Of a DNA stretch of 64,000 bases, positions 15,113-43,822 are shown piece by piece (positions within the stretch are counted from its first letter, which is position 1; the number at the start of each line of letters is the position of its first letter). The position numbers were made by a program, and so were the translations under genes. The stretch is from Clostridia bacterium (GTDB lineage: Bacteria > Bacillota > Clostridia > Oscillospirales > Acutalibacteraceae), in contig JAGAJB010000012.1 of the NCBI GenBank assembly GCA_017626295.1, forward strand, positions 62,001-126,000. The letters run 5' to 3'. Below the pieces are notes generated by a model, which saw only the letters and a list, made by a program, of their open reading frames with translations, was not told the DNA's origin and searched no databases.

Positions 15113-15194
15113 TGGTGGAGACGGTCGGGATCGAACCGATGACCTCTTGAATGCCATTCAAGCGCTCTACCGAATTAACGGGTAGACATCCCCC
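15113..15194 (-). pseudogene. tRNA-Ala(GGC) 3' part joined to an att-like arm (copy 1)
   Basis: Minus strand. From the CCA end (15113-15115) inward there are a normal acceptor 3' strand, T-arm (GGTTCGATCC), variable loop and anticodon arm with GGC anticodon (Ala). At GGTAGAGC (core 15164-15171) normal tRNA sequence stops and is replaced by a 23-nt arm (15172-15194) related to the island ends. The arm still supplies a GGGGATG acceptor 5' strand that pairs fully with CGTCTCC, including a G3-U70 pair, but the D-arm lacks the normal GG loop. I read it as a recombination junction; function as a tRNA is doubtful. Confidence 0.7.
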
Positions 15195-16771: not shown

Positions 16772-16852
<81 letters not shown>

Positions 16853-19851: not shown

Positions 19852-19857
19852 AATCGT

Positions 19858-24938: not shown

Positions 24939-25316
24939 CTATAGTTTTTTTAATAATTCGGTCCAGAACTCATCCGAATAATTTAGTTCATCAGCTTTTC
25001 TTATTACTTCACAAGCCGATTCCCTGTTTGAGAGATATATTAAAATATCAACAGGAATATGAACATTAGTATTATTGCGTTGTTGATTATCCTTAGCAGC
25101 AATATCAAACCAAAGTTTTCTTTCTGCACAATTAAGGCGTAGCACATCAGCAAGTTTCACCAAAATCAAATCATTGGGCGGAGCTTTATGACCTTTCTCA
25201 ATGTTGTATAAATATGTATGTGACACACCTGTTTTAGAAGCTAATTCTCGTAATGAGATTTTTTTCTCTTGCCGTTTTTTATCAAAATAAACACCGAATA
25301 GATTAAGTTTCTCCAC
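24939..25316 (-). CDS. XRE-family transcriptional regulator in the agrBD operon
   Basis: A 125-aa protein with an N-terminal XRE helix-turn-helix (ISLRELASKTGVSHTYLYNI, then EKGHKAPP) and a C-terminal helical region (VHIPVDILIYLSNRESACEV). The frame starts at a GTG overlapping agrB by 14 nt. It is the last gene of the agrD-agrB-XRE operon and differs from the divergently transcribed XRE gene at 26271. Probably controls the signalling locus or the mobile element; inference from position. Confidence 0.8.
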   Translation of the reverse strand: MEKLNLFGVYFDKKRQEKKISLRELASKTGVSHTYLYNIEKGHKAPPNDLILVKLADVLRLNCAERKLWFDIAAKDNQQRNNTNVHIPVDILIYLSNRESACEVIRKADELNYSDEFWTELLKKL

Positions 25317-25899
25317 GTTTACCCATTCTTATTTTTTTAAATTTTCCAGCAATAAGTAAAACACCTTCTAAAATCAAGCTTATACAACAAGGAACACAAA
25401 TCGTTTTGATTTTAAAATAAAAAGAAACTATAATTATTGTAACTACAATTATCAAAACTACTTTAGTACGTTTGCAAAAAACTTTTAATTCCGTTTCATC
25501 TAAAACTTTTTCATCAGTATCGATTGGCGCGAAAATAAATATAAATACGGATAAAATAAATGTTATAATTACAAGAACTATAAAATAGAACTCACTAGTT
25601 ATTAAACTCATTATAACTATACTAGCTAGTATACCTAAAGTTGTTAAAAATTCACATCGCAATTCGGTTGATGCATGATAGCCACCAGCATATTGTCTTA
25701 TTATCGTGAACACAACAAAGAAAATCAAGCTTTGTGGAAGCAATCCAAACACTAAGCCCAATAAAGCAGTAATACTTATGAATAAGATGTTGGACAAAAG
25801 AATAAAAACACCATACTCATATAGTTCCAATTCATTTTTTTCTATATGACCGGAATGAATAAAATTTTTTACAATCACTCTCGCAATTTTACTTATCAT
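25303..25899 (-). CDS. agrB: AgrB-like peptide-processing membrane protease
   Basis: A 198-aa polytopic membrane protein. The AgrB motif RQYAGGYHAS contains the catalytic His (residue 75), and Cys82 follows in CEFLTT. Five or six hydrophobic segments are visible. AgrB cleaves the C-terminal tail of the AgrD precursor and forms the thiolactone ring of the signal peptide. It overlaps agrD upstream by 11 nt and the XRE gene downstream. With the divergent LytTR regulator and GHKL kinase it makes a complete agr-type circuit. Confidence 0.92.
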   Translation of the reverse strand: MISKIARVIVKNFIHSGHIEKNELELYEYGVFILLSNILFISITALLGLVFGLLPQSLIFFVVFTIIRQYAGGYHASTELRCEFLTTLGILASIVIMSLITSEFYFIVLVIITFILSVFIFIFAPIDTDEKVLDETELKVFCKRTKVVLIIVVTIIIVSFYFKIKTICVPCCISLILEGVLLIAGKFKKIRMGKRGET

Positions 25900-26041
25900 T
25901 TTTTATTTTACTAAACTGAGAGAGTTGTTTAGGCATTTTAGGTTGATAAACATACACGCAACCTGTTGTATTAGCATTGGTCTTTAACATTTTATTTGTG
26001 ATTGCTACTACAACTTTTTTTGATTTATCCTTAAACTTCAT
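25889..26041 (-). CDS. agrD: AgrD-like autoinducing-peptide precursor (50 aa)
   Basis: A short gene with AAAGGAGG 8 nt before ATG at 26041. The peptide has a basic amphipathic leader (MKFKDKSKKVVVAITNKM), the segment NTTGCVYVY, and the acidic/Pro-type tail QPKMPKQLSQF. In AgrD peptides the Cys forms a thiolactone with the residue four places on, which predicts a ring CVYVY with an N-terminal tail of unknown length. The QPK.P..L tail is typical of clostridial AgrD. It overlaps agrB by 11 nt. Mature ends are predicted, not observed. Confidence 0.88.
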   Translation of the reverse strand: MKFKDKSKKVVVAITNKMLKTNANTTGCVYVYQPKMPKQLSQFSKIKNDK

Positions 26042-26270
26042 AAGATTGCCTCCTTTCAAATAATTTGCTTCACATACAAATTATAACCAAAAATTGTAAA
26101 AATCAACTAAAATGCACAAAACACAATAATAAAGGCACACCAAATTAAATTACGCCTAACACGAAGAAAAGTCTATGGTATATATTTTTTTACATCTGTT
26201 ACAGACTTTTTTCTCCATTGGTTTGTTTTATTGTTAGATGGTATATGTTACCATTTAACAGGGTGATAAA
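26042..26270. promoter_or_regulatory. Divergent promoter region between agrD and the XRE gene
   Basis: A 229-nt gap. On the minus strand a TATAAT box (26080-26085) lies 39 nt before agrD, with TTGATT (26101-26106) at a short 15-nt spacing. A palindromic operator lies near the plus-strand gene. No clear copy of the 42-bp repeat found at 28708 and 35931 is present; only a weak partial match near 26147-26166. Confidence 0.5.
26238..26254. promoter_or_regulatory. Palindromic operator before the XRE gene
   Basis: ATGGTA-TATGT-TACCAT, perfect 6-bp arms, 17 nt upstream of the XRE start codon. Its position suits autorepression. Confidence 0.55.
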
Positions 26271-26600
26271 ATGACAATTGATTATAGTTTAATAGGTTCA
26301 AGAATATGTCAAAGAAGGAAAGAATTAAAAGTCACTCAGAAAAAACTTTCGGAACGTATAAATGTTTCACGCAACCATATATCAGGTATTGAAACAGGCG
26401 ACAAAAGACCTAGTTTAGAAACATTATTAATAATATGTAAGGAATTAGGTATATCGTTAGATTATCTCGTTAGTGGGACAATTTATACTAACATTGATGC
26501 TGAAATAATAGAAAAAATCAAGTTTTGTTCCATCGAAAACAAACAAAGAATATCTAAAATAATTGATGTTTTTTACGAAGAAAATAAACTTGTAAAATAA
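26271..26600 (+). CDS. XRE-family transcriptional regulator
   Basis: A 109-aa repressor-type protein with a complete N-terminal XRE HTH (VTQKKLSERINVSRNHISGI, then ETGDKRPS and LGISLDYLVSG) and a short helical C-terminus. ATG at 26271 with GGGTGAT upstream. It is transcribed away from agrD and followed by a terminator, so it is largely separate from the response-regulator gene. It may act on the palindrome just upstream. Such regulators often gate quorum-sensing loci and mobile elements. Confidence 0.88.
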   Translation: MTIDYSLIGSRICQRRKELKVTQKKLSERINVSRNHISGIETGDKRPSLETLLIICKELGISLDYLVSGTIYTNIDAEIIEKIKFCSIENKQRISKIIDVFYEENKLVK

Positions 26601-26603
26601 AAA

Positions 26604-26649
26604 AACGCATTGTATAATGAATGAAAATTATACAGTGCGTTATTTTTTT
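26604..26649 (+). terminator. Terminator between XRE and agrA-like genes
   Basis: A 15-bp stem (AACGCATTGTATAAT with ATTATACAGTGCGTT, one G-T pair) followed by ATTTTTTT. It lies only 15 nt before the next gene's start codon, so it may also attenuate read-through into that gene. Confidence 0.8.
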
Positions 26650-26664
26650 GAAAAGAGGTGTCTT

Positions 26665-27363
26665 ATGAGAATAGCTGTTTGTGACGATAATAAAGATTAT
26701 CGTGAGTTATTGTTTAATTATGTTAAATTTTATTTTAATGAAAAACATATTCCCTACGAGTGTGAAGAATACAACTGTGGTGAACAATTACTTGCTTCAA
26801 ATCTAAAATTCGATATTGTTTTTCTTGATATTGAAATGAGAGCAATTAACGGAATAAAGGTAACAGAGCAGTTAAATAAGAAAAATAAAAGTACCATAAT
26901 TTTTATAGTCACAGCATATAACAATTATCTTGATGATGCAATGGATTTAAAAGTTTTTCGCTTTATTGATAAACAATTAATAACACCTCAAAGGATATAT
27001 TTAAGTTTAGATAAGGCTCTTGCTCAAATAAATCAAGGTGATATTACAGTGCGCACGATTGATAATGATATTATAAAAGTACGCAAAAATGAGGTTATGT
27101 ATATTGAGGTAACTAGAAGAGAGACAACAATTGTTACTATTGATAGTTGTTATAAATCAAAAGAAACATTGAATTATTTTAAAGAACAACTTACATCAAA
27201 CTATTTTGTTATCCCACACAGCAGTTTCATTGTCAATCTAAATTATGTAAAAAAATATAAACGTGACGAATTTATAATGAAAAATGATGTGAAAATTTAT
27301 ATTTCTCAAAAGAAGCAACCTCAAATTAGAAAGCTTTTTTTTGCATTTACTATGGAGGATTAA
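26665..27363 (+). CDS. AgrA-like LytTR response regulator
   Basis: A 232-aa two-domain protein: receiver domain beginning MRIAVCDDNKDY with the phosphorylated Asp in IVFLDIEMR, then a LytTR DNA-binding domain (DNDIIKVRKNEVMYIEV; FVIPHSSFIVNLNYVKKY). The ATG at 26665 is preferred (GAGGTG upstream) over an earlier in-frame ATG at 26617 that lies inside the terminator. It should be phosphorylated by the kinase encoded next and bind direct repeats near target promoters. The duplicated 42-bp sequence at 28708 and 35931 is the obvious candidate target. Confidence 0.92.
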   Translation: MRIAVCDDNKDYRELLFNYVKFYFNEKHIPYECEEYNCGEQLLASNLKFDIVFLDIEMRAINGIKVTEQLNKKNKSTIIFIVTAYNNYLDDAMDLKVFRFIDKQLITPQRIYLSLDKALAQINQGDITVRTIDNDIIKVRKNEVMYIEVTRRETTIVTIDSCYKSKETLNYFKEQLTSNYFVIPHSSFIVNLNYVKKYKRDEFIMKNDVKIYISQKKQPQIRKLFFAFTMED

Positions 27364-27364
27364 C

Positions 27365-28651
27365 ATGTTGTATAAAACGATTTTTCAAGTGATTATGTTC
27401 GTTGTTGAAGGTTTTATGATTTTCTATTATGGTCAATCCTTATTTAAAACCAAAAAGAACAGCATTACAATTGCTTTGTGGACGTCGGTTATTTATCTTT
27501 CATTTTTGTTGGTTCACCTGAATGCCAATGGACTGATAAATACAATTTATCTTTTACTAATTAATTTCTTGTTGTTATTTTACTTGTTTGATTGCAAACT
27601 TAAGAACGCTATTTTCCATTCATTTATCTTAAGTTTTTTGATGATAATAACGGAGTTTATATCAGTTTCAGTAACATCAATACTTTTCAAAGTAGATTTT
27701 AACACATACACCAACGATCCAAACATGTATATATTAAATGTTGCTTTTAGTAAGATGATATATTTTCTTTTATGTTTATTGATGACTCGTGTGTTTAATA
27801 GGTCTAAAGGGCAGTTTGGTAGTGCTTCACGCTTTTGGATTTTGATAATAGTTCCGATTTCTTCTCTTGCAGCATTAACTGTTCTGTTTAATGCTGCATT
27901 AAACATGAATTTTTCTGAAGCATATAAAATAGCAAGTAGTATTTCTGCTGCATTATTAATTATTTCGAATATTGTTTTATTTTTTATATATGAACGTTCT
28001 ATCCGAGATGCCGCTGAACTTTTAGAATTGAAAGCAGCGGAACAAAAAGCTGAGACTGATAAAACATATTTTGAAATATTGGAGAAGAACAACGACAATC
28101 TAAAAATATTCACTCACGATATCAAAAATCATTTATTGCATATTTCTAATTTAGCCCAAAATGAAGAAGTAACAGATTATATAACTGATTTATGTGGTAC
28201 TGTTACAAATTTTGGCAATTATGCCATGAGCAAAAACAAAACTTTAGATATAATTATAAATAAATATTTATTATTGTGCGAAAGCAAAAAAATACATATT
28301 TATTTTGATACTAAAACCGCAAATCTTGCTTTCATTGAATCACCTGATTTAACCGCTTTGTTAAACAATTTGTTGGATAATGCTGTAGAAGCTGCAGAGC
28401 TCTCTTCTGAGAAAGAAATACTGGTTAAATTGTTCACAAAAAACAATTCAATGCAGGTTATAAAGATTGTTAATTCTTGTAATACAGAACCTAATGCAAA
28501 AAACAATAATTTATTAACAATAAAGACGGATAAAAATTTACATGGTTTAGGTTTAAAAAGTGTAAAAAAAATTGTTAACAAGTACAACGGTAGTTTTGAA
28601 TGGAAATACAAAAAGGACGACAACTTATTTGAGATTTGCATAATTTTTTAG
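27365..28651 (+). CDS. AgrC-like GHKL sensor histidine kinase
   Basis: A 428-aa protein: five to six TM helices in the first ~200 residues, a linker with the phospho-acceptor His (FTHDIKNHLLHIS), and a GHKL ATPase domain with NLLDNAVEAAE (N box) and HGLGLKSVKKIV (G box). The start at 27365 has GGAGG upstream and immediately follows the response-regulator stop. It should sense the cyclic peptide made from agrD. The pair is followed by a terminator and then the RHS toxin gene. Confidence 0.92.
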   Translation: MLYKTIFQVIMFVVEGFMIFYYGQSLFKTKKNSITIALWTSVIYLSFLLVHLNANGLINTIYLLLINFLLLFYLFDCKLKNAIFHSFILSFLMIITEFISVSVTSILFKVDFNTYTNDPNMYILNVAFSKMIYFLLCLLMTRVFNRSKGQFGSASRFWILIIVPISSLAALTVLFNAALNMNFSEAYKIASSISAALLIISNIVLFFIYERSIRDAAELLELKAAEQKAETDKTYFEILEKNNDNLKIFTHDIKNHLLHISNLAQNEEVTDYITDLCGTVTNFGNYAMSKNKTLDIIINKYLLLCESKKIHIYFDTKTANLAFIESPDLTALLNNLLDNAVEAAELSSEKEILVKLFTKNNSMQVIKIVNSCNTEPNAKNNNLLTIKTDKNLHGLGLKSVKKIVNKYNGSFEWKYKKDDNLFEICIIF

Positions 28652-28891: not shown

Positions 28892-31800
28892 ATGAGAAAA
28901 GGTAAAAAAATCTTAGCTATTTTGTTAACCGTACTAACAATAATGGGTGTGTTCTCTTCTGCGACTACAGTTATTGCAGCTGATTTCTCAGAAGCACAGG
29001 CAAGAAAAGCATATTTCAACGAAAATTTATCAGGTTATTTGAAAAGTATTATTAATACTGATAACGCAGTGAAAATTACAGAAGTTGAAGAAGCACAAAA
29101 AATTGAAGCAACAGAAGAAGCTGAAATTGTAACGGCGAATGCAAGAACCAGTACTGTTCAAACATATTCTTCTGATGCAACAAATAACACCACAGAAAAC
29201 GAAACGGATATTGACCACACAAAACTCACTCTCGAGCTTGATGATGGTAGTGAAACTGCATATATGTTTTCTGAACCGGTTAGCTTTATTGATGATAATG
29301 GTGAATTAGTATATAAAGATATTAATATTCAGCCTTTGTCCAATGCGGAGTTGAATTCTCTTGGTTATAGTTATGAAAATGGAGCAAACGATTATAAAAC
29401 GTATTTTGGAGCGAATTCTGCCAACGGTATTATGTTGGTTAATCCCAATAGCAACAGAGTAAGAATTGTTCCTAATAGTTCTATAACAGCGGAAGGTCAA
29501 ATTGTAACTCTTGAAGATGACGGAAAGCAATTTGATGCATTTTTATATAACGGAGTTTACGACTCAAATACATCACTTCGGTATGCACCACAGCTTAACG
29601 GAATAAAAGAGGAAATAATAGTTGCTTCTTATACCGGAAAAACAACATATGAATTTACTCTTTATACAGAAAATGCAGTAGCTGCTATCAACTCTTATGG
29701 TGACATTGAAATCATAGATAAGAATAACCGCAAAATAGTTGATACATTTAAAGCACCTTTTGTTTATGATTCGTCTGAAGGCTTTGACCAAACCTCTGAA
29801 CATTATGCTGACTGCGAATATGGTCTTGAAGAAGTATCAGAAGGTCAATATAATTTAACTATTAGTGTTCCTGCAGAATATCTGTCTGCTGAAACTACAC
29901 AGTATCCTATTATCATAGACCCCACTACATCAAATATATCAATGACATATGATACTTCTGTATATTCAGCCTATAGCACAAATTCGCATAGTTCTAATAT
30001 TACTGCTTGTTTCGGTAGAACTTCCTCTAGCGAATATGGCAGAGGCAGAGCAATGTTCTATTTCAAAATACCGTCTGACATAGAAAAGTATGCAAAAATA
30101 TCTTCTGCTAAACTTTACTTGCGAGAAACAACAGGTCGTACTGATACGATGTATGTAAGACCTTATATAATAACAGATACTTGGAATAACTCTGTTACTT
30201 GGAGTACAAGACCAGCTTATACTACAAGTATCTCATATCCTGGTAAATCCGGACTTGCATTACCAAGAAGAAATATCAACAGTACATCAACAGATGTAAG
30301 TGATAGTAATTATTGGTATGCTTTTAACATAACTTATGCAGTAAGAGCTTGGAAAAGCGGAACTTCAAACCGTGGTCTAATGTTTATTGCAGAATGCGAT
30401 GCTAATAGTGATGATTATCTTTGGAGAGCATTTGCTACAAAAGAACATACAACTTCATCCTATAGACCATATGCAGTCATTAGTTACACTAACGATGCAA
30501 CTGTTCCTAAAATTAGTTCTGTATCTGGTAATCCAACAGCATATACAAATAGTAATGTTACATTAAAAGTTACTGCCACAGATGAAACTTACGGTATTTA
30601 CAGATACAGTTTTGATAATGGTTCAACTTGGCAAGCAAGCAATTCAAAAACATTTTCTTCTAACCAAACAGTTAAAATAAAAGTTAAGGACTATGCAGGT
30701 AATATTTCTGCTACAAAGTCTGTATCTATTACAAAAATAGATAAGACAGCACCATCTGCTACATTCTCTTACGGAGAGGTTACAGATAACTATATGCCTG
30801 TAGATGTTACAATCACATTAACGGATAATTGTAGCCTAAAAAGTTATTCAATTGATGGTGATTCGACATCAATAAGTGGGACAAAAAAAGTTATTACAAC
30901 AGAAGGTGAACCAGGTTTTGAATATACGCTTGTTGTTACTGACACTGCTGGCAATAAAAAGACGTTAACTTACAGTATAGATTATCCATATCCGGATGAT
31001 CTTTCGGAACCTGTTGCACCTGATCTATTTGAAGAAAACGGAACTATTTATGTAAGTTCTCGCTCATTTGATTTTAACGAGGAAACTGATAGCGAAGAAT
31101 ATTTCTTGGTTGATATCGGTCTTTATAGGTATAGTTTTCACGATAAAGATAAGATGGCGGTCGATGTCGTACATACAGAAGATATTACCGTAGAAGCCTG
31201 GTTGGATGACCTTGCTGGTAATATGGGGGATTCCTCAACTATTACCGTTCAAAGTAAAATAGGTGAATATTCAAATTCATACAATGATATTGCATTCGGT
31301 GAAGGGTTGCTGCCTATAGGTTTCGAGCGAACATATTCAAGTAAAAGTGGTTGGTTCTATAATTTTAATGCGGGGCTTTCAACTTACAGAAACGGTTTTG
31401 TATTTACTGATTTTTATGGAGATAAGCACCACTTTATTTCAGATGCAAACGGTGAATACTTTTCCGTTGATGGAGATCAATTAATAGTTGAGAGCGGAAC
31501 AATTGCAGGAAAAACTTATTCCTACAGTCTTGAATACAATTCATTAACTTTGTATTTTGATTCATCAAAAAAACTTGCTGCGGTAGCAGATGAATATAAT
31601 ACTGCGATATACACTTGGAGTGATACTGCACTTACGATTACAAACAAAATAAAATCTGCAGACTCCGATATATATACAAATGCAGTAGTAGCAACAGTTA
31701 GTTTAAATAATGGTAAACCTGTTAGTATAACTGTTGCTCCTGTATCTTCTACGGAAACCAAAACAGTAAGTTATTCTTGGAACGGTAATAACTTAACAGC

Positions 31801-34800
31801 ATTTACAGATGCTTCCGGCACAGTTCATACTTATGCTTATACTGATAATCTGTTGACTAACGATGATGGTATAACTATTGATTATTCCAATGGTAGAATT
31901 AAGCGCATAACACAGAAAAACGGTTCGTTTGTAAAATATACTTATAACGACAATGATGCAAGTATTAATGGTTTTTACGATAATGTGGGTTCAGTTACAA
32001 TTACCGACAGTAAAGGTATTACTGATACATTCTATTATTCCGACGGAATAATAACAAGTGAAAGTGGTTTTAGTTATACAGATGATGCCATATATAATCC
32101 TGAAGCAATCAACAATCAATTAACAACCGATACAATTTCGGATGATTTACATTATTTTGTTGAAGAAGAGCCTGATGATGAATCTGAAGAAAGTGAAGAA
32201 CCCATTGTGGAAGAGACTGAAGAATCCTCCGACCTATATGATAAATATGATGATGGTAGTTATACTTTCTATGAATATGACGAAAGCGGTAGAGTAATTA
32301 CGTCGCTTGAAGTTGCTGCAGGTGCATTAACTGTAACCGACACAACAACATTTGCTGATGCAGAAACAGTAGCAGAATCAAAAACCATTATTACATATGC
32401 CGATGAAACAAGTGAAAATGTTATTGAAGAAATAATACTTGAAAGAACGTCTAGCGGTGAATTGGTAAATTCTCAAAAAACTACTTATTCATATAACGAA
32501 CGTGGCGTTCTTGCTACATATAACACATTTAGTTGGTTGTTTGAGACTTTTTGGTATCCTACCTACAGTGAAGAATATTTTTATAATGATTACGGTGTAA
32601 CTATAAAGGAAATAACAACAATTTATACAACTACTCAAAATAAAGAAACAGAAATGGTTGAAACAACCTCAACAAGTACCACAACTGAATATGTTTATGA
32701 TGCTTGGAATCAGCTTGTTGAAACTGTTACTGATGCTGATACAGAGAACGAGTATAATACCATTTTAGTATATGATGCACTTGGAAGAAACACTTCTGTT
32801 ACTTCAAACGATAATGTGACATTGTATGAATACAATTCTGATGGTAATGTTACTTTATATTCAGAGAATGGTGAAGAAACTGTTTATGTATATGATGACG
32901 GCGGAGATATTCTTTCAAGAACAAATCCTAACGGCTCGGTTGCTTTATATATTTATGACAGTTATGGTAATTTAATCAATCATTCATTTAATGGTTATGC
33001 TTTTACATATAATACTCTTGGAAGTCTCCTTACTGCAAAGAGCGAAAATCAGAACCTTGCCACTTACACTTATTCATCTGATACTAAACAGGAAGTTTTG
33101 TCAGCGAATTTTGGGAACGGACAGTCTGTCTCATATAACTATAATACAGACGGAGAGATAGTATCTGTTAAGCTCGGCAATGATACTAAATATGCTTATG
33201 AACATTTCGAGCAGTCTGACGGAGATGCTATAAAAGAATGGACAGAGTTAACTGACTATGTCAATAGCATTCAAAAGGTTATTGACGAAAATAAAACAAC
33301 TGTTAATGATCTTGACGGAAACTTCGTTTATTCTGTTGAAAATATTGTTTCCGAATCCGATGAAATAACCGGGGAAGCAGTAGCAGTCGGTGATACAGTT
33401 TATTCGATTAATTATGGTGATGTTGCCGATATATTCACTGTGGGCGATACCCAACTTTTCACTAAATCATTTGAAGAAAATGATGATGGGGAGTTATTGT
33501 CTGAAACAATTTCAAATGTATTAACAACCCAATACTGTTACAATAGCGATTCTTCTATCGGAACTTTAGAAAACATCTTAAATGAGCTTACCCTTGAATA
33601 TTCCTATGGTTATAACAGTAAAGGTAATATAACAGCAGAAACACTTACAAGAAAAGCAAAAGGAGATTTAGGAGAAACGGTTGACACTGTCGAAAATGTT
33701 ATTTATATTTATGATAGTAAACAACAGCTTGTTTGTGCTGAAAACAACACAACCAAGTGGGAATATTCTTATGACAACAGAGGTAATATTTTAACTGCTA
33801 AAGAATATGCTGTTTCTGCAGGAACTGATGGCGAAAAAACGTACACCCTGAAAACAGATGGAAACAATACGTTTGCTTATGATACTGATTGGCAGGATAA
33901 ACTTACCACTTTTAATGGTCAAAGTATAACTTATGATGCTATCGGTAATCCTGTATCATACAAAGGTAATACTCTCACATGGACAATGGGCAGGCAACTG
34001 GCTTCTTACGATTCAAATACTTATAAATACAATGAAGATGGCATAAGAACAAGTAAGACAGTAAACGGTGTTAAGACAAACTATTATCTCAATGGAACAG
34101 ATATAATTGAGCAAACCGATGGAACAAATACTCTGCATTTCTATTATGATAATACTGGTGAAATAACCGGTTTTACATATAATGATAATCAGTATTTCTA
34201 TATTAAAAATGCACAGGATGATATCGTTGCTATTGCGGATAATTCAGGCAATGTTATTTCCGAATATGCTTATGACCCGTGGGGTTCAGTTATTTCTGTT
34301 ACAGGTTCAAATACCGAAATCGGTAATCTTAATCCATTCAGATATCGCTCATATTACTACGATTCCGAAATAAATATGTATTATCTCCAAAGCCGTTATT
34401 ACGACCCTGAGATTTGCAGATTTATTAACTGTGATGATGTAAATTATATTGGTGTTAATGAATCCGAAATCAGCTACAACCCATTTGCTTATTGTGAAAA
34501 TGATGCAGTTAATAATAAAGACTCAAGCGGATATGCTATTTCTTATAAGTTTGTTGGTTTTGGAGTTCAGATTTATGCGAATATTGCCAATTTGGCTTGT
34601 GGAATAGAAATTGTTTGGTATAATAGCAGAATTAATACAAAAAAATATAAAAATCCTAATGTTTATTTCTTTGTAGAAGGTACATATGGTAGAAATGGTT
34701 CAACATTAAAAGATATGTTAAACAGTTTCAAGAAGAGACCTGAAAGTGTTTTTAAAAGTGGAAAAATATTAAAAAATATTAGTTTTTCTATATGTTTTTT

Positions 34801-35071
34801 TGCTATATTTGCAGATAACTCTTTTAAAACACCTTTAAATTATGAAGGAGTTTTTACAACTGTTTCAGCAACGGTAAAAAAAGTTAAAGGATATGTATCA
34901 ACCTCAAAACCGAAAGGTTGTTTAAGTGTTGGCGTGGGGTACAGTAATAAGTTGTGGTCAGTATCGGCGAGTGCAAGTTATTATTGGTTAATATCTGGAG
35001 CTTACGGTGTTTTTGGGAATTTACGGAGTCAAGTAAAAAGAAAAACAAATGGCATAAAAGCACCAAATTAA
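28892..35071 (+). CDS. Secreted WapA/RHS-type polymorphic toxin
   Basis: A 2059-aa exported protein. Signal peptide (about residues 1-30); DNRLRE/CBM-like domain (about 350-535, YFKIPSDIEKYAKISSAKLY); Ig-like segments; DUF6531-like start of the RHS shell (near 800, SYNDIAFGEGLLPIGFERTY); many YD repeats (about 960-1750); and the RHS-associated core (RYRSYYYDSEINMYYLQSRY, later YNPFAYCENDAVN). The last ~180 residues after the core are a variable tail, the expected toxin, which I do not recognise. WapA-like proteins kill neighbouring cells by contact. GAAAGGATG precedes the ATG, and a candidate immunity gene follows. Confidence 0.88.
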   Translation: MRKGKKILAILLTVLTIMGVFSSATTVIAADFSEAQARKAYFNENLSGYLKSIINTDNAVKITEVEEAQKIEATEEAEIVTANARTSTVQTYSSDATNNTTENETDIDHTKLTLELDDGSETAYMFSEPVSFIDDNGELVYKDINIQPLSNAELNSLGYSYENGANDYKTYFGANSANGIMLVNPNSNRVRIVPNSSITAEGQIVTLEDDGKQFDAFLYNGVYDSNTSLRYAPQLNGIKEEIIVASYTGKTTYEFTLYTENAVAAINSYGDIEIIDKNNRKIVDTFKAPFVYDSSEGFDQTSEHYADCEYGLEEVSEGQYNLTISVPAEYLSAETTQYPIIIDPTTSNISMTYDTSVYSAYSTNSHSSNITACFGRTSSSEYGRGRAMFYFKIPSDIEKYAKISSAKLYLRETTGRTDTMYVRPYIITDTWNNSVTWSTRPAYTTSISYPGKSGLALPRRNINSTSTDVSDSNYWYAFNITYAVRAWKSGTSNRGLMFIAECDANSDDYLWRAFATKEHTTSSYRPYAVISYTNDATVPKISSVSGNPTAYTNSNVTLKVTATDETYGIYRYSFDNGSTWQASNSKTFSSNQTVKIKVKDYAGNISATKSVSITKIDKTAPSATFSYGEVTDNYMPVDVTITLTDNCSLKSYSIDGDSTSISGTKKVITTEGEPGFEYTLVVTDTAGNKKTLTYSIDYPYPDDLSEPVAPDLFEENGTIYVSSRSFDFNEETDSEEYFLVDIGLYRYSFHDKDKMAVDVVHTEDITVEAWLDDLAGNMGDSSTITVQSKIGEYSNSYNDIAFGEGLLPIGFERTYSSKSGWFYNFNAGLSTYRNGFVFTDFYGDKHHFISDANGEYFSVDGDQLIVESGTIAGKTYSYSLEYNSLTLYFDSSKKLAAVADEYNTAIYTWSDTALTITNKIKSADSDIYTNAVVATVSLNNGKPVSITVAPVSSTETKTVSYSWNGNNLTAFTDASGTVHTYAYTDNLLTNDDGITIDYSNGRIKRITQKNGSFVKYTYNDNDASINGFYDNVGSVTITDSKGITDTFYYSDGIITSESGFSYTDDAIYNPEAINNQLTTDTISDDLHYFVEEEPDDESEESEEPIVEETEESSDLYDKYDDGSYTFYEYDESGRVITSLEVAAGALTVTDTTTFADAETVAESKTIITYADETSENVIEEIILERTSSGELVNSQKTTYSYNERGVLATYNTFSWLFETFWYPTYSEEYFYNDYGVTIKEITTIYTTTQNKETEMVETTSTSTTTEYVYDAWNQLVETVTDADTENEYNTILVYDALGRNTSVTSNDNVTLYEYNSDGNVTLYSENGEETVYVYDDGGDILSRTNPNGSVALYIYDSYGNLINHSFNGYAFTYNTLGSLLTAKSENQNLATYTYSSDTKQEVLSANFGNGQSVSYNYNTDGEIVSVKLGNDTKYAYEHFEQSDGDAIKEWTELTDYVNSIQKVIDENKTTVNDLDGNFVYSVENIVSESDEITGEAVAVGDTVYSINYGDVADIFTVGDTQLFTKSFEENDDGELLSETISNVLTTQYCYNSDSSIGTLENILNELTLEYSYGYNSKGNITAETLTRKAKGDLGETVDTVENVIYIYDSKQQLVCAENNTTKWEYSYDNRGNILTAKEYAVSAGTDGEKTYTLKTDGNNTFAYDTDWQDKLTTFNGQSITYDAIGNPVSYKGNTLTWTMGRQLASYDSNTYKYNEDGIRTSKTVNGVKTNYYLNGTDIIEQTDGTNTLHFYYDNTGEITGFTYNDNQYFYIKNAQDDIVAIADNSGNVISEYAYDPWGSVISVTGSNTEIGNLNPFRYRSYYYDSEINMYYLQSRYYDPEICRFINCDDVNYIGVNESEISYNPFAYCENDAVNNKDSSGYAISYKFVGFGVQIYANIANLACGIEIVWYNSRINTKKYKNPNVYFFVEGTYGRNGSTLKDMLNSFKKRPESVFKSGKILKNISFSICFFAIFADNSFKTPLNYEGVFTTVSATVKKVKGYVSTSKPKGCLSVGVGYSNKLWSVSASASYYWLISGAYGVFGNLRSQVKRKTNGIKAPN

Positions 35072-36232: not shown

Positions 36233-37516
36233 GTGTCTTACTATTCCCTAATTTATGAAGTAAAAATGGATGATTTAATGATTACGAACACAAACAAATT
36301 TAACAGTAAACGCTCAAATGAAATTAAGTCTTTTTCAAGTGAAGTTTTTAACTTTATCAAAAACCACAAACAAGATGGCCTTCTTCTTGAGGGTAATCTT
36401 AAATACTTTTCTTCAAAAAGGCTCATAGTTATTAGCAATGTAAAAATCGATACACTCAGTGCAATTGATTATATAGTAGGTTGCGATAATATATACATCC
36501 TGCAATATGCAAATTATGATGACACTTACCGGGCATATATACATTATGTCCAAGATCCTTCTATTATTTCTGTTGAGCCCGACATGGTAATCGAGTTGGA
36601 CAAACCACAACTTTCCAAACAACCGAAACTATCACTGCACGAATCAGAATTAATACATTCCTGGGGTTTTGAATATATAAAATCTAAAGAAGCCTTTGAT
36701 TATATTTTACAGAACAAAACTGTAGATGGTTTACCACAAATGGTTGTTGGTGTAATAGATGATGGTGTTGAAACAGGAAATCCTATTTTCAAAAACAGGC
36801 TCCTGAACGCATATAGTTTTGTTGGAGAATCACCTAATCCATATAAATCTGATATGGGACATGGAGCAAAAGTATGTAGTGTGTTAATGGAAAATACTTT
36901 AGAAAATGTGAAAATTATTTCATATAAGATTTTCTCAGAAAGAGAAACAACATTGTCAATACTACGGTTAGCGGAAATGCAAGCTGAGTTTGATGGTGTG
37001 GATTTTATAAATAGTAGTTATGGTATGTTCGTGAAATTTGAGAGTCGATTACATAAAGCTTTACACATAGCATCAGCTGGCAATGTAAAATGCAATACAC
37101 CGCAGTACCCTGCCGCTTGTGATGGTGTTATATCTGTAGCCGGAATTACTCCGAATGGTGTATTGTCCGACACCTCTACCTACGGAGATTGGGTAACGGT
37201 TGCAGCTCCAAGTGAAAATATTAAACTTCCGTCAATATATGGACTTAATGAATATATCGATTTTAGTGGAACCTCTTGTGCTGCACCATTTGTAACTGCA
37301 ATTTGTGCGATGATAAAAACTCAACATCCAAACTTGAACAATGAACAAATAAAACAGGTTCTATATAATTCTTGTGACACGGCTGATGTTCCGGTTAAGT
37401 ACGGGATTGTTAATATGTTTAATGCCCTTAGTTATTTGGATAACATAACTCAACCTGAAGCAATAAAACGAACTGTTGATTTCACACCAAAAGACCCCGA
37501 ACCAGCTTTAGTTTAA
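36233..37516 (+). CDS. Subtilisin-like serine protease (S8), no signal peptide
   Basis: A 427-aa protein. The first ~125 residues look like an I9-type inhibitory prodomain (ending SIISVEPDMVIEL). The S8 domain has Asp176/177 (GVIDDGVE), His210 (DMGHGAKV), Asn284 (ASAGN) and Ser348 (FSGTSCAAPF), so it should be active. No signal peptide or anchor. Start uncertain: GTG at 36233 or ATG at 36266, neither with a strong RBS. It sits between the Agr/RHS region and the GNAT gene, downstream of box B. Could be an intracellular effector or signal-processing protease; both are inference. Confidence 0.85.
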   Translation: MSYYSLIYEVKMDDLMITNTNKFNSKRSNEIKSFSSEVFNFIKNHKQDGLLLEGNLKYFSSKRLIVISNVKIDTLSAIDYIVGCDNIYILQYANYDDTYRAYIHYVQDPSIISVEPDMVIELDKPQLSKQPKLSLHESELIHSWGFEYIKSKEAFDYILQNKTVDGLPQMVVGVIDDGVETGNPIFKNRLLNAYSFVGESPNPYKSDMGHGAKVCSVLMENTLENVKIISYKIFSERETTLSILRLAEMQAEFDGVDFINSSYGMFVKFESRLHKALHIASAGNVKCNTPQYPAACDGVISVAGITPNGVLSDTSTYGDWVTVAAPSENIKLPSIYGLNEYIDFSGTSCAAPFVTAICAMIKTQHPNLNNEQIKQVLYNSCDTADVPVKYGIVNMFNALSYLDNITQPEAIKRTVDFTPKDPEPALV

Positions 37517-38873: not shown

Positions 38874-39503
38874 ATGGTAAATGAAAAAATGTCGTTTATC
38901 ATTGTCCTTGTGGGCGTTTCCGGTTCAGGCAAAAGCACATTAAAAAAACATGCTATAGAAAAAATTAGCGATATATCTAATATGATTGCTGTTACCAATC
39001 GTATGGCACGTACAACCGAACAAAATGGAATAGATAAATTATTTTATTCCAACTATGAATTTAATAAAGCAGTTCTATCCGGTGAATTATGTTTGATTAA
39101 TAAAGTATATGGTAACATGTATGCATTTCGTGTTTCTGATTTTATTTCAGGGGGTACATATCTTACGGAATTACATTATAAAAATTACAATGATTTTATA
39201 AATTATAATAGTAATACTGTAAACATATATATTAGACCATCGAATATTATATTTGCTCAGACAGGTATATATTCAAGAGGAGCGACTCAAAAGGAGATCG
39301 ATTCTCGTATTAATTCATTACAACAAGAACATAATACACTAGAACAACTTGCTAAAAATGGTTTTTTTGATTATACCTTTATTAATGACTATACCGATAC
39401 AAGCGTTCAAGAATTTATTGAACTTATAAAAGATATTATAGATAATAGGAGCAACATATATGAAAATAAAAAAAGTACTACCGCGTATAATAACCAAAGT
39501 TGA
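38874..39503 (+). CDS. Guanylate-kinase-like P-loop nucleotide kinase
   Basis: A 209-aa protein with Walker A GVSGSGKST and the guanylate-kinase pattern: TNRMARTTEQNGIDKLFY, then FNKAVLSGELCLINKVYGNM. The later lid region is divergent. It is not the housekeeping Gmk type because the GMP-binding part is altered. First gene of a tight plus-strand operon; the next gene overlaps its end by 44 nt. It could phosphorylate a nucleotide used by the deoxyribosyltransferase-like partner, or regulate it. Role is inference. Confidence 0.75.
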   Translation: MVNEKMSFIIVLVGVSGSGKSTLKKHAIEKISDISNMIAVTNRMARTTEQNGIDKLFYSNYEFNKAVLSGELCLINKVYGNMYAFRVSDFISGGTYLTELHYKNYNDFINYNSNTVNIYIRPSNIIFAQTGIYSRGATQKEIDSRINSLQQEHNTLEQLAKNGFFDYTFINDYTDTSVQEFIELIKDIIDNRSNIYENKKSTTAYNNQS

Positions 39504-41166
39504 TACAACTGCAATCCAAATACATATAAATCATACACGCAAAAAAAAATTGGTGTATACATCCTTTGATGGAGATTACATGCATTTTCTTCAACATATG
39601 TTGAAGTTTACTCAAACTAATGGATATTTACCAATAAATCCGGAATCTGCTTTAGGTTATTATGTTTCAACCACCACACATGGTGGAAGTAAGATACCTG
39701 TGATGAAGGATTGTATTAAAACCGAATCTATTTGTGATGAAATGTGGATATTCAATCCTAAAGATGGGCATATTCCAGAAGGGGTTCTTGCGGAAATGAT
39801 GGTGTGGTTGGAAACAAAAAACACCGGTATAAAGCTCATTCCTTTTTTTGATAAAATGAAAATTGCCCTTGATATCAATACTCCGATTGATCTTTCGCAA
39901 TACACATTTTCTTGTGAAAACATTGAAAGTTATATTTCAAATAGAAAGCAAAGTGATATTGATGAAATAAAAAGTAAACTATTAGATTCATCAAACAATC
40001 AATCTTGTGCATACATTGTTGCAAACTTTTTCAACTACAAACATATTGATTGGGCTCGTTCTTATTGTTACCATAATGGATTCTGTCCGATATCTCCACA
40101 GAACATTATGCCATATTATTTATACAAAACCAGAGCCGAGAAAATTGATCAACAATATTTAATAGATAGACTTACACTCTTGGATAAATGTGATAAATTA
40201 TTGTGGTTCACCAATACAGTGGATTTTGAAAATGAAGTGGATTGTTTGGATGTACTCTCTGCAACTGAACTTTATTATTGGTTTAAGTATAAAAATCCAG
40301 AAGACATCTATATAATCGATTGGAAAGATGCGGGTGTTCCCAAATATACAAATAAAGAAAACTGGGCATTAACAACAACAGAGGTTGAAGAAATAACTAA
40401 CATTAATACAAAGGATGTTACTTTCAGAAAACTAATTCAAGAATATGAAAAGCAGATAAAGGATGAATTTAATATTTTTAAAGGTGATTTATTAGGCAAG
40501 GATGAATGTAATTTTATAAAGAGTGATATGAATGCTTTCCTTTTTGGTTTGATTTCCGATCAGTCTGTAAAAGCGGAACTAGCTTGGTCTTTACCTTATA
40601 GGCTAAAACAACGTTTGGGGCATTTTGATATTCATCAAATAGCTGAGATGCAGATAACTGATTTGGAAAGAGTAATTAAAGACAAGCCTGCGTTACATAG
40701 ATACCCTTCAAATATAGCCAAATATCTTATATTTGCAAGTCAAACATTAATAAATAATTATAATGGTGATGCAAGTAACATTTGGGCTAATGGCGTTAGT
40801 GCAGAAGAAATCGTAAAACGTCTAGAAGAATTTAAAGGCATTAGTCACAAAAAGGCCGCTTTGGGAAGTTTATTGTTAGTGCGTGATCTAGGTGTAGAAA
40901 TAGTAGATAAGGAAAATATTAATTTAGCTTATGATATACATATTCGTAGGATATGTCTTCGTACAGGTTTAATTACCCAAGACTCTCTCAAAAATGTTAT
41001 TGCTGCAGGCAAAAAAATATTTCCTGAATTTCCTGGAAGACTAACATCAGCTTTTTGGGCAATAGGTCGTGACATTTGTAGGCCAAGTGATCCTATGTGT
41101 ACAAGATGCCCTCTTGATAGTGTATGTGATCATAATATTTATTTAGGAGGTGATATACATGCATAA
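39460..41166 (+). CDS. Fusion: two deoxyribosyltransferase-like domains plus EndoIII-type DNA glycosylase
   Basis: A 568-aa protein of unusual build. Two tandem N-terminal domains (about 25-145 and 180-290) resemble nucleoside 2-deoxyribosyltransferase-like/DUF4406-type folds (YTSFDGDY, GYLPINPESALG, CDEMWIFNP; then FCPISPQNIMPYYL, CDKLLWFTN). The C-terminal ~200 residues form an HhH-GPD glycosylase: GISHKKA holds the lyase Lys, AYDIHIRR the catalytic Asp, and CRPSDPMCTRCPLDSVC is a complete C-x6-C-x2-C-x5-C [4Fe-4S] loop. ATG at 39460 with AGGAG. Predicted to remove an unusual base from DNA; the N-terminal domains may bind or process the nucleotide. Confidence 0.82.
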   Translation: MKIKKVLPRIITKVDTTAIQIHINHTRKKKLVYTSFDGDYMHFLQHMLKFTQTNGYLPINPESALGYYVSTTTHGGSKIPVMKDCIKTESICDEMWIFNPKDGHIPEGVLAEMMVWLETKNTGIKLIPFFDKMKIALDINTPIDLSQYTFSCENIESYISNRKQSDIDEIKSKLLDSSNNQSCAYIVANFFNYKHIDWARSYCYHNGFCPISPQNIMPYYLYKTRAEKIDQQYLIDRLTLLDKCDKLLWFTNTVDFENEVDCLDVLSATELYYWFKYKNPEDIYIIDWKDAGVPKYTNKENWALTTTEVEEITNINTKDVTFRKLIQEYEKQIKDEFNIFKGDLLGKDECNFIKSDMNAFLFGLISDQSVKAELAWSLPYRLKQRLGHFDIHQIAEMQITDLERVIKDKPALHRYPSNIAKYLIFASQTLINNYNGDASNIWANGVSAEEIVKRLEEFKGISHKKAALGSLLLVRDLGVEIVDKENINLAYDIHIRRICLRTGLITQDSLKNVIAAGKKIFPEFPGRLTSAFWAIGRDICRPSDPMCTRCPLDSVCDHNIYLGGDIHA

Positions 41167-41833
41167 GTCCTTTCCTATTATTTCTTGTTTATCTAGCTTG
41201 ATCATAAATAGAATTATGACGATTTGTGTTCGCCATTCATATAATACCAATGATTACAATGCTTGTTACAGAAAAAGAGAATACTTGACCAGTTTTGAAG
41301 AAAAGTGCATAGCGCAATTTCTTTCGGTTATCAATAATCCAACACCCAAAATACTTGATGTGGGTTGTGGTTCGGGAAAGCCTTACGACCAATTTTTATT
41401 ATCAAAAAATTGCCAATTAGTCGGGGTGGATATTAGTAAAAAGCAGATAGAACTTGCTAGACTTAATGCACCTTCGGCAAAATATATTAATATCAATTTT
41501 TTACGATATAATACATCAGAAAAATTTGATGGTGTCATAATGCTATATTCGTTATTTCATGTAAGCAGGGAATATCACAGAAGTTTTCTTGAAAAAATAT
41601 ACTCAATGTTAAATGATGGTGGAAAAGTGCTGTTGAATGTTCGGAAAGAAGATAATTTATTAAAATTCCGACATGATTTTTGTGGCAAATCAATGTTCTG
41701 GAGTCATTATGACTATAAAACCTTTAAAAAGATTCTTCGTGAAACAGGTTTTAAGTTTGAATTTTTAGGTGATGAAAAAAACAGTGGTAGTTCTGAAAGT
41801 CATGTGTGGTTGCTCCTCCATAAAAAAAACTAA
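41159..41833 (+). CDS. Class I SAM-dependent methyltransferase
   Basis: A 224-aa protein with motif I ILDVGCGSGKPY, the acidic residue in VGVDISKKQ, and FDGVIMLYSLFHV as motif IV region, typical of small-molecule or tRNA-type Methyltransf_11/25 enzymes rather than DNA methylases. ATG at 41159 with AGGAGG 6 nt upstream, overlapping the previous stop by 8 nt. Part of the kinase/glycosylase operon. Substrate unknown. Confidence 0.82.
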   Translation: MHKSFPIISCLSSLIINRIMTICVRHSYNTNDYNACYRKREYLTSFEEKCIAQFLSVINNPTPKILDVGCGSGKPYDQFLLSKNCQLVGVDISKKQIELARLNAPSAKYININFLRYNTSEKFDGVIMLYSLFHVSREYHRSFLEKIYSMLNDGGKVLLNVRKEDNLLKFRHDFCGKSMFWSHYDYKTFKKILRETGFKFEFLGDEKNSGSSESHVWLLLHKKN

Positions 41834-42049
41834 TGTTGAAATGATGTCGTTCTATGTTAGTGGAGGTATTAACAGTAAAATATTGATATAATCTCTTTAT
41901 TAAAGTAAAAGAATTGTCGTTGTTGCTAGTTTGATGAAAATATAGAATGTTTAGTTGAAACATTATCATTTGTTGATGGTTAAGGATGTACAGTTATAAC
42001 CATTTGTTTAACTTATAATTAGATTATTGTTAGAATTGAGGATATATAT

Positions 42050-43045
42050 ATGAAACCTAAAGTTTTTATTGGTTCTTCTGTAGAAGGATTGGAAATTGCC
42101 AATGCCATTCAAGCTCAACTTGACTATTATTGTGAAGCTACGGTTTGGAAAGATGGTATATTTAAGTTATCAGAAAATGCTCTTGAATCACTAGAAAAAA
42201 CATTGAACAATATGGAATATGGTATTTTTGTTTTTTCTGATGATGATGTTTCCAAAATTCGTGATATAGAAAATCCAACTGTTCGTGATAATGTGTTATT
42301 TGAATTTGGATTGTTTATGGGTAAATTGGGTAGAGAAAAAGTCTTTTTTATCGTTCCAGAGAATGTTAAAGATTTACATCTGCCAACGGATTTATTAGGA
42401 ATTACTACAGGTACATATTTTGAGCGAGATGACGGCAATCTAATATCTGGAGTTAATACTTTTTGTGAAAATGTAAAGAAAATCATAGCATCGTTTAATC
42501 TTAACAATTATGGTTTGATAAAATATGGTATGTTTCAAGACTTTGCGAGTGATATTTCCTTAGCATTAAAACAGAGCGAAAATGTAACCCTATATTTTAT
42601 TCATTCAAGAAGTTGGAGAGAAAATAATCATAATGCAATTATTGATTTTTTGCGAAATGAAAAAAGTAAAAAACTTACAGTTTTTTTGCCTGATTTTTTG
42701 AATGAGAGTCTTATGAATAGTTTTAAAGATAATTTTTCTGACGGGAAATATATACCAAATCTTATAGAAGATGCTGTAAAATTCTTTTTAGAATTAAAGT
42801 CGGACTATCCTGATAAAATAGATATACATTTATATGCTTTTTATCCAACATATTCTTTTTATATGTTTGATAAAACAACTATAATAGCATTATATCCAAC
42901 CACTGATAGAAAGAAAAATGTTCCTACTTTCATGATAAACAATACATCTGGGTTTTATCGATTTGTAGCAGATGATTGTTTAGTTTTAAAAGAAGTATCC
43001 ATTGATATGAGTGAGTCTCATTTGTCAAAAATTAAGGAGGATTAA
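42050..43045 (+). CDS. TIR-like nucleotide-binding protein (CAP12/PycTIR type) with C-terminal domain
   Basis: A 331-aa protein. Residues 1-150 form a TIR-like domain of the PF10137 type: KVFIGSSVEGLEIANAIQ, EYGIFVFSDDD, and the hallmark RDNVLFEFGLFMGKLGREKV. Relatives in CBASS and Pycsar systems (CAP12, PycTIR) degrade NAD+ when activated. The catalytic Glu would be in FEFG. Residues 150-331 (FIHSRSWRENNHNAIIDFL; TFMINNTSGFYRFV) are a domain I do not recognise, probably sensor. It starts 216 nt after the methyltransferase and couples to the Fpg-like gene 3 nt downstream. Confidence 0.82.
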   Translation: MKPKVFIGSSVEGLEIANAIQAQLDYYCEATVWKDGIFKLSENALESLEKTLNNMEYGIFVFSDDDVSKIRDIENPTVRDNVLFEFGLFMGKLGREKVFFIVPENVKDLHLPTDLLGITTGTYFERDDGNLISGVNTFCENVKKIIASFNLNNYGLIKYGMFQDFASDISLALKQSENVTLYFIHSRSWRENNHNAIIDFLRNEKSKKLTVFLPDFLNESLMNSFKDNFSDGKYIPNLIEDAVKFFLELKSDYPDKIDIHLYAFYPTYSFYMFDKTTIIALYPTTDRKKNVPTFMINNTSGFYRFVADDCLVLKEVSIDMSESHLSKIKED

Positions 43046-43048
43046 AGA

Positions 43049-43822
43049 ATGCCAGAATTACCAGATTTACAAGTTATTGCACAAAATTTAGAAAAAATAT
43101 ATGCCGATTGTCGTTTGCAAGACATATACTTAGCAAAATCAGCTAAAGTGAACGCTAGTTTCGAAACATATAAAGAATTGTTAGTAGGTAAAAAAGTTGA
43201 AATGATCTTTAGATTTGGAAAAGAAATTGGCATCGTTTTTGAAGGAGGTCATTCCTTATATCTTCATCTTATGCGAGAGGGAAAATTATTTGAGTCTAAT
43301 GAAGGTATAAAAAATGTGGTTTTGCAGTTGCTTTTTTCTAATGGAAAAATGTTAGTGATGAGCGATTTTATGAAACAAGCAAGGGTTTTTCTTGATCCTG
43401 AACTAACTGATGTCCCTGACCCACTTGATGAACATTTTACAATAGAATATTTTAAGAGTCGCCTTACCGAAAAAAGTAGAACAGCAATTAAGACTTTTTT
43501 GATTGATCAGGATAATATTTTGGGGATTGGAAACGCTTATGCCGATGAAATTTTGTGGCTAACTAAATTATCTCCTTTATCTAAATGTGGGAATCTTCCA
43601 GAAAATGTAGTGCTTGAGTTGTATGATAATATTCGTTGTGTATTAGATAATTCTATACAAAAAATCAAAGAAATCTCTCCTGATACTATATCAGGAGAAA
43701 TAAGAAGTTTTTTGAATGTTCATAACAAGGATAGAAAATTAACACCATCAGGACACGAAATATTAATTAATAAAATTGGTGGAAAAATAACTTATTTTAC
43801 AGAAGAACAGATATTGTATTAA
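43049..43822 (+). CDS. Fpg/Nei-family DNA glycosylase lacking the zinc finger
   Basis: A 257-aa protein. N-terminal MPELPDLQVI carries the catalytic Pro and Glu; GGHSLYLHLMREGKL is the usual HLxM segment; DQDNILGIGNAYADEILW is the H2TH motif. The C-terminal zinc finger is degenerate: GGKITYFTEEQ occupies the GR.T.YC.xCQ position, and all Cys ligands are gone, giving a zincless finger as in some eukaryotic NEIL1-type enzymes. GGAGG precedes the ATG. It closes the operon with the TIR-like gene. A housekeeping MutM would normally keep the zinc ligands, so a special substrate is likely. Confidence 0.88.
   Translation: MPELPDLQVIAQNLEKIYADCRLQDIYLAKSAKVNASFETYKELLVGKKVEMIFRFGKEIGIVFEGGHSLYLHLMREGKLFESNEGIKNVVLQLLFSNGKMLVMSDFMKQARVFLDPELTDVPDPLDEHFTIEYFKSRLTEKSRTAIKTFLIDQDNILGIGNAYADEILWLTKLSPLSKCGNLPENVVLELYDNIRCVLDNSIQKIKEISPDTISGEIRSFLNVHNKDRKLTPSGHEILINKIGGKITYFTEEQILY

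Follow-up and report, generated by a model that had tools for sequence, protein, structure and literature searches.

Base-excision immunity is a proven mechanism, exemplified by Brig1 (PMC11078745) and Brig3 (PMC13160076), which the available text of the two papers presents as homologous proteins related to uracil-DNA glycosylases. According to the available portion of PMC13160076, Brig2 was found by a search for homologues of Brig1. Base-excision restriction enzymes, in the accessible part of PMC10273834, are described as excising a base unless it is properly methylated. Here we analyse five genes on one strand, spanning 4.95 kb, in a 64,000-nucleotide stretch (hereafter the window) of contig JAGAJB010000012.1 from a Clostridia bacterium (assembly GCA_017626295.1). 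The genes lie together in one AT-rich island and encode, among others, two DNA glycosylases and a TIR protein. They are two units and not one system: unit A comprises a kinase, a fusion of tandem repeats with an HhH-GPD glycosylase, and a methyltransferase, and unit B comprises the TIR protein and an Fpg-type glycosylase, as follows.

38874 to 39503, plus strand: unit A gene 1, a divergent nucleoside monophosphate kinase of the guanylate kinase family (Pfam E 1.3e-10)
39460 to 41166, plus strand: unit A gene 2, a 568-residue fusion of two tandem repeats and an endonuclease III-type HhH-GPD/4Fe-4S glycosylase (HhH-GPD E 2.4e-6)
41159 to 41833, plus strand: unit A gene 3, a small class-I S-adenosylmethionine (SAM) methyltransferase (E 2.4e-15; listed reading-frame start GTG 41150)
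41834 to 42049: gap of 216 bp between unit A and unit B
42050 to 43045, plus strand: unit B gene 1, a Cap12/PycTIR-type TIR protein (CAP12/PCTIR PF10137, E 1.1e-31)
43049 to 43822, plus strand: unit B gene 2, a zincless Fpg/Nei-type glycosylase, starting 3 bp after the TIR stop codon
44015 to 44091, minus strand: tRNA-Ala, where the AT-rich island ends on the right

We separate two units because three overlapping genes are followed by the gap and then by a two-gene unit, and because the single additional locus in which the two-gene unit was found resembles the window in DNA over that unit alone. The kinase and fusion-protein genes overlap by 44 bp. For the methyltransferase, ATG 41159, with AGGAGG upstream, is a better start than GTG 41150, and it overlaps the stop of the fusion gene. 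Each of the five open reading frames (ORFs) has ahead of it a purine-rich stretch suitable as a ribosome-binding site. Promoter-like matches in the region were no commoner than in shuffled sequence, and consensus promoters were rejected (32 observed versus 41.8 expected).

An earlier note on this DNA had taken the five tightly packed genes for a single module. The ORFs are where it placed them (38874-39503, 39460-41166, 41150-41833, 42050-43045 and 43049-43822), but the layout above divides them. Most of its family assignments hold: a guanylate-kinase-like kinase, though a divergent one; a class-I methyltransferase; a TIR protein of the effector family of Pycsar and of cyclic oligonucleotide-based antiphage signalling systems (CBASS); and two unrelated glycosylases of the HhH-GPD and Fpg families, both with the known catalytic residues present and the latter with a finger devoid of cysteine pairs. 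The note had also proposed two deoxyribosyltransferase-like domains. Two repeats do exist, but that identity found no backing in Pfam, the PDB or profile-profile comparison. The kinase, HhH, Fpg and TIR proteins are divergent members of their families, scoring well under the NCBIfam cut-offs.

Unit B also occurs apart from unit A. The sole full-length match to the TIR protein (65% identity) was found in a genome of the same family but another genus (G237), where the following gene encodes an Fpg of equal length (55% identical), in the same order and with the same 3-bp spacing as in the window. Comparison of the window with 19.5 kb around this locus gave a single DNA match (E ≤ 1e-3), at 42044-43813 with 67.7% identity, which corresponds to the TIR and Fpg genes alone; the kinase and HhH genes are absent from the G237 locus. 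Changes at the first, second and third codon positions were 0.26/0.19/0.53 for TIR and 0.36/0.21/0.55 for Fpg, with third positions the most changed in both genes, as would be seen under protein-level selection. The G237 pair is also preceded by a methyltransferase gene. We did not count this gene as shared, because the match of its product to the window methyltransferase is confined to 98 residues belonging to the common fold (35% identity) and a 376-bp gap with a stem-loop separates it from the TIR gene. On the 3' side of the pair are a 260-residue ORF, GajA (680 bits) and a UvrD-type helicase, which place it near a Gabija system.

TIR relatives were detected in 9 of 295 genomes of the order and 15 of 341 of the class, the bacterium's own genome being counted in each. 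Outside the window, 23 distinct TIR relatives were available (21 genomes plus the loci L056 and L024, most covered with 1.5-kb flanks); a single one has an Fpg relative in its locus, and the same one alone has the C-terminal domain described below. Plasmid matches to the TIR protein comprised 33 records, with the neighbourhood read in one of them (H44), and a comparison of the DNA of units A and B with plasmids yielded no useful lead.

The TIR domain occupies residues 4-123 and includes E85 within LFEFG, a glutamate that we take to be the catalytic TIR residue. It is a Cap12/PCTIR domain by its matches, which were best to the PADLOC effector profile (150.8 bits), NCBIfam (134 bits, with 450 required) and PDB entry 9lmq. 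The remainder of the protein forms an unclassified C-terminal domain (approximately residues 159-331) that had no match in Pfam below E 0.2, in the PDB, in viral contigs, or in plasmids at E up to 0.1. A search of 197 genomes of the order found it in the bacterium's own genome alone, G237 not being listed in that draw. As to a possible STING-type or cyclic-nucleotide sensor domain, a low-confidence structural model (predicted local distance difference test, pLDDT, 49) suggests alternating strands and helices.

Zincless members of the Fpg/Nei family have a finger without cysteines, and the unit B glycosylase is of this kind: its only cysteines are at positions 21, 180 and 197, none of them in the finger, so that the four-cysteine zinc finger is missing. 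The protein has the Fpg N-terminal domain (E 6.7e-13) and the H2TH domain (E 1.6e-20), and scores 109 bits where 203 are required for fpg. It keeps the Fpg/MutM residues P2, E3 and K58, which we presume to be catalytic, and the H2TH motif GIGNAY. We also observed two tandem Fpg genes related to this protein on a Dyadobacter plasmid (L022, 6932-8585), near LigD and ExoIII.

In unit A, residues 344-565 of the fusion protein constitute an endonuclease III-type HhH-GPD domain with K464 and D492, presumably the catalytic residues, and the four cluster cysteines 540, 547, 550 and 556, as in glycosylase/lyases of this type. This part scores 92 bits against the 136 required by TIGR03252. The two repeats (residues 28-130 and 182-295) are 24% identical to each other. 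By eye we took them for a deoxyribosyltransferase/DUF4406 pattern, which could not be confirmed. They had no Pfam match at E<10 and no PDB match better than E 0.4, hhalign comparison with deoxyribosyltransferase-like families aligned 11 columns (P 0.07), a PHROG deoxyribosyltransferase match was weak (E 0.071), and the predicted structure failed to fold (pLDDT 31). Searches for the repeats returned nothing from phages and plasmids at E up to 1 and only the bacterium's own genome among 150 of the family.

Close relatives of the HhH domain are sparse, with one convincing case, besides the bacterium's own genome, in 394 genomes of the order. They accounted for 3 of 89 pattern-matching stretches in genome contigs and were found in 4 of 398 genomes of the phylum at E ≤ 1e-12 (own genome included; G1207 the weakest), and profile searches of viral contigs found none. 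Although 75 of the 394 order genomes nominally matched the fusion protein, all bar the own genome and one other (G158) did so at E 1.4e-7 or worse, and we rejected them because most cover about residues 480-565, a region common to ordinary endonuclease III. A viral match of the fusion protein (L021) extended over 52 residues. The lysine, the aspartate and the four cysteines are invariant across the five aligned rows, the window included. The N-termini vary: tandem repeats in the window protein, two other repeats (judged by eye) in G158, a DUF4357 match under its cut-off in L027, and no such domain in L028 (Brachyspira). Clostridium peptidivorans (L026) has an intact 255-residue HhH ORF, 64% identical to that of the window. 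On its 5' side lies a decayed piece in which matches to the second repeat are spread over two frames (70% over residues 233-252 and 49% over residues 255-320), indicating that the repeat-HhH fusion is not private to the window genome. This locus had no convincing match to the other four genes.

The neighbourhoods of seven HhH relatives were read (G158, G958, G920, L027, L028, L026 and L025, the last on a Rhizobium plasmid) and judged partly by eye. Three of them, the first three listed, have defence-type neighbours. The HhH gene of G158 has a PDDEXK_4 gene directly 3' of it, and 3.7 kb away on its 5' side is a type III restriction gene (966 bits). In G958, the HhH gene is directly followed by a gene for a 1606-residue STAND-like nucleoside triphosphatase (AAA_22 E 1.5e-7; NACHT and NB-ARC weak) with weak PADLOC endonuclease-effector matches; the two genes overlap only if the TTG listed as the start of the second is genuine. 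In G920, a nucleotidyltransferase/HepT pair is located 3.9 kb from the relative. At L027, a helix-turn-helix-type ORF upstream overlaps the HhH gene by the listed starts. Two further observations concern these loci. A possible uracil-glycosylase-like ORF lies directly 5' of the HhH glycosylase of G158 (L041, 8178-10626), with a TIGR04274 match of just E 0.075, and on the Rhizobium plasmid (4177-5465) a thymidylate-kinase-family gene is directly followed by a short HhH relative.

The unit A kinase scores 75 bits, with 160 required by TIGR03263. Aligned with the gmk of the host, it retains the P-loop GVSGSGKST (from residue 14) and the arginines R43 and R46. The residues aligned with the serine, tyrosine, glutamate and threonine that we take to contact guanosine monophosphate (GMP) in guanylate kinases are replaced, and the GMP-specific acceptor site of guanylate kinase is thus lacking. 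A normal gmk is present elsewhere in the host genome. Searches with the kinase covered viral contigs, plasmids and the own genome, and those with the methyltransferase the fetched loci; 15 plasmid records that matched the kinase with 22-25% identity were rejected, those with such an annotation being guanylate kinases. The methyltransferase sequence contains neither [DNS]PP[YFW] (motif IV) nor a PC motif and is therefore, by motif, not a DNA methyltransferase; the cognate DNA methyltransferase that restriction-modification with a restriction glycosylase requires was not found in this protein.

Building on what could be read directly, namely the gene content, the presence of known catalytic residues, the separate occurrence of TIR-Fpg and the defence-type neighbours of several relatives, we propose that units A and B are two independent cassettes of base-excision-repair enzymes, side by side in a mobile, defence-bearing island, and that both are base-excision-based defences. 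We give this proposal a probability of roughly 0.4. The anti-phage function of both units we infer from context, and their substrates, triggers and protection against phage are suggested on the same footing. In unit B, the Fpg would bind or excise an abnormal base, or its apurinic/apyrimidinic (AP) product, in invading DNA, and its state would be relayed through the C-terminal domain of the TIR protein, switching on the nicotinamide adenine dinucleotide hydrolase (NADase) of the TIR domain and stopping the cell. In unit A, the HhH-GPD protein would excise a non-standard base from the invader's DNA and, as a lyase-type enzyme with the lysine, may nick at the excision site. The N-terminal repeats and the adjoining kinase with its altered base pocket may serve to recognise the corresponding modified nucleotide or to process it, and the methyltransferase may act in an accessory capacity, on a substrate other than DNA. 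Context favours the defence reading, because the island carries a CBASS, Gabija genes lie downstream of TIR-Fpg in G237, and HhH relatives are found near PDDEXK_4, type III restriction and STAND-like genes.

Several observations weigh against this proposal. The TIR-Fpg pair was seen in two genomes only, and no defence gene was recognised at four of the seven HhH relatives (C. peptidivorans, L027, Brachyspira and the Rhizobium plasmid), where ORF lists and annotations were read by eye with no full family search. The lysine is missing from the most distant HhH relatives (L064 and L025), the second of which also stops short of the cluster region. Both structure predictions, of the repeats and of the TIR C-terminal domain, are low in confidence. 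The methyltransferase weakly matches DNA-methyltransferase profiles (PADLOC MTase_II 8.4e-6; PHROG 2.8e-5), in the SAM-binding part only; that restriction to one part, together with the motif absence, speaks against a restriction-modification reading. TIGR00577 finds no Fpg besides the island copy in the genome, which is 96% complete (the same search was positive in 8 of 14 controls), so that the island Fpg could simply serve repair. Among phages and plasmids, the nearest zincless relatives of the Fpg occur together with repair genes (L057, L058 and L022): what we take to be UmuC/UmuD-like and SRAP-like ORFs in L057, likewise an SRAP-like ORF in L058, and annotated LigD and ExoIII in L022. These neighbours point to repair.

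Plain DNA repair is the main rival to the defence reading. Under it, the Fpg and HhH enzymes would be cargo that mends oxidised or alkylated bases of the host or of the mobile element, with the TIR gene an unrelated neighbour. Both the repair setting of the zincless Fpg relatives, translesion-polymerase-like genes among it, and the failure to find another Fpg in the genome are as repair would predict. The pairing of TIR and Fpg and their 3-bp spacing have nevertheless been kept over 35-45% protein divergence in G237, where nothing else is shared, and the HhH relatives near restriction-type and STAND-like genes have changing N-terminal parts; we regard repair cargo as unlikely. The earlier note had favoured one five-gene defence system, in which the kinase, the repeat-HhH protein and the methyltransferase would detect or excise modified bases, the Fpg would help and the TIR protein would be the last line. 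Shared strand, compact span and common island agree with that arrangement, as does the class-I methyltransferase that also precedes TIR-Fpg in G237. The latter, however, resembles the window enzyme over the common fold alone and stands off behind its stem-loop gap, the DNA shared with G237 ends at TIR and Fpg, and none of the other genes was seen at the HhH locus of C. peptidivorans. The full five-gene set was not found a second time around relatives reached through the fusion protein, the TIR protein or the Fpg, although sub-sets recur (TIR with Fpg in G237, and a decayed repeat with HhH in C. peptidivorans). The note's base-excision defence idea thus keeps the contextual backing of the island CBASS, the Gabija genes and the restriction and STAND-like neighbours of HhH relatives, but its placing of the TIR protein as the last line of one system finds no support in that form, since in the sole other genome TIR accompanies Fpg without kinase and HhH; a single five-gene system now appears improbable.

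Two other explanations each address one unit. Unit B might resemble a toxin-antitoxin pair in which the Fpg binds the C-terminal domain of the TIR protein and restrains its NADase until the Fpg is titrated away by AP sites, by the ends of phage DNA or by an inhibitor from the phage. Consistent with such a pair are the coupling of the two genes, the private C-terminal domain of a toxin-class enzyme, and an Fpg beside that domain in two of two cases. Set against this, the toxin gene comes first, and the Fpg retains residues known as catalytic that a mere inhibitor would not need, making this account quite improbable. Unit A might instead use its kinase, repeats and methyltransferase to make or edit either a small compound or a modified nucleotide belonging to the DNA of the element itself, with the HhH enzyme proof-reading. 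The altered base pocket of the kinase is compatible with this, and on the Rhizobium plasmid, too, an HhH relative has a nucleotide kinase as its neighbour. That relative, however, is short and lacks both the lysine and the cluster region, no DNA-methyltransferase motif is present in the methyltransferase, and no other modification gene was recognised next to unit A; of all the explanations we give this one the smallest chance.

The proposal of two base-excision defences can be put in a more specific joint form, which we consider doubtful as a whole. In this form, TIR-Fpg would be a stand-alone two-gene immune system, in which the Fpg, by reading non-standard bases in invading DNA or leaving an AP site at them, switches on a Cap12-like NADase via the new C-terminal domain, and the adjoining second system would pair a kinase whose base specificity has changed with an HhH-GPD/4Fe-4S glycosylase whose N-terminal domains can be exchanged. 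If it is true, base-excision immunity arose from the HhH and Fpg folds besides uracil glycosylases, and two more classical DNA-glycosylase folds were turned into anti-phage weapons or sensors. A repair enzyme would then be wired straight to an NAD-depleting suicide switch, linking abortive infection with base-excision immunity, which has so far been described as attacking phage DNA directly, and TIR-Fpg would offer a clean two-gene system for asking which phage base is the trigger.

The AT-rich island extends from about 15 to 45 kb of the window, with a GC content of 28-34% inside and 38-41% outside (3-kb steps). The five genes form its right end, and it stops near the tRNA-Ala gene. Elsewhere in the island we identified a complete CBASS operon (16862-20916, minus strand; 2TM effector 287, E1-E2 616 and cyclase 363 bits in PADLOC). 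A near-identical tRNA-like pair (15115-15190 and 16774-16850) lies within a 118-nucleotide repeat (88%). ARAGORN calls neither a tRNA, and they are possible remnants of stacked insertions. A quorum-sensing-like set of an AgrB-like gene, a LytTR response regulator and a GHKL histidine kinase is located at 25303-28651, inside the island. A 2059-residue protein with an RHS-repeat match (28892-35071, plus strand) had no PADLOC match at E ≤ 0.001. A subtilase-family protein (36233-37516, plus strand) has weak IetS-type PADLOC matches, and just downstream of it is a 340-residue ORF without significant family match.

Among known systems, the window TIR protein shares with Cap12/PycTIR of CBASS and Pycsar a TIR domain with its glutamate in place. 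It differs from these effectors in its C-terminal domain, which is without match, in having an Fpg as partner, and in an operon with no cyclase, where the neighbours are Fpg and a methyltransferase (in G237, Fpg and a non-orthologous methyltransferase). The island CBASS lies 21 kb from the TIR gene on the other strand and has its own 2TM effector. With Fpg/MutM and the zincless Nei-type enzymes, the window Fpg shares the Fapy N-terminal and H2TH domains and P2-E3, and differs by its coupling to a TIR gene. The fusion protein shares the HhH lyase lysine, the aspartate and the 4Fe-4S cysteines with TIGR03252 and endonuclease III, and is set apart by its two fused tandem repeats and sparse close relatives. 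The likeness to base-excision restriction enzymes, as presented in the accessible part of PMC10273834, consists of a glycosylase with a methyltransferase in a mobile setting; the unit A methyltransferase differs in having no DNA-methyltransferase motifs. A literature search, with most subscription papers outside its coverage, found no report of an HhH-GPD or Fpg defence glycosylase or of a TIR-Fpg pair. The comparison with Brig1 and Brig3-BapA rests on the available text of PMC11078745 and PMC13160076. These are likewise DNA glycosylases within defence islands, and their proposed action, AP sites in phage DNA, resembles that suggested here. Brig3 is encoded in an operon of two genes, and its island also has CBASS (PMC13160076), as the window island does. 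By the papers' descriptions, and not by direct comparison with a Brig sequence, the window enzymes are distinct, matching HhH-GPD/4Fe-4S and Fpg/H2TH families, and whereas the Brig operons appear without a TIR partner in the available text of both papers, the window Fpg has one.

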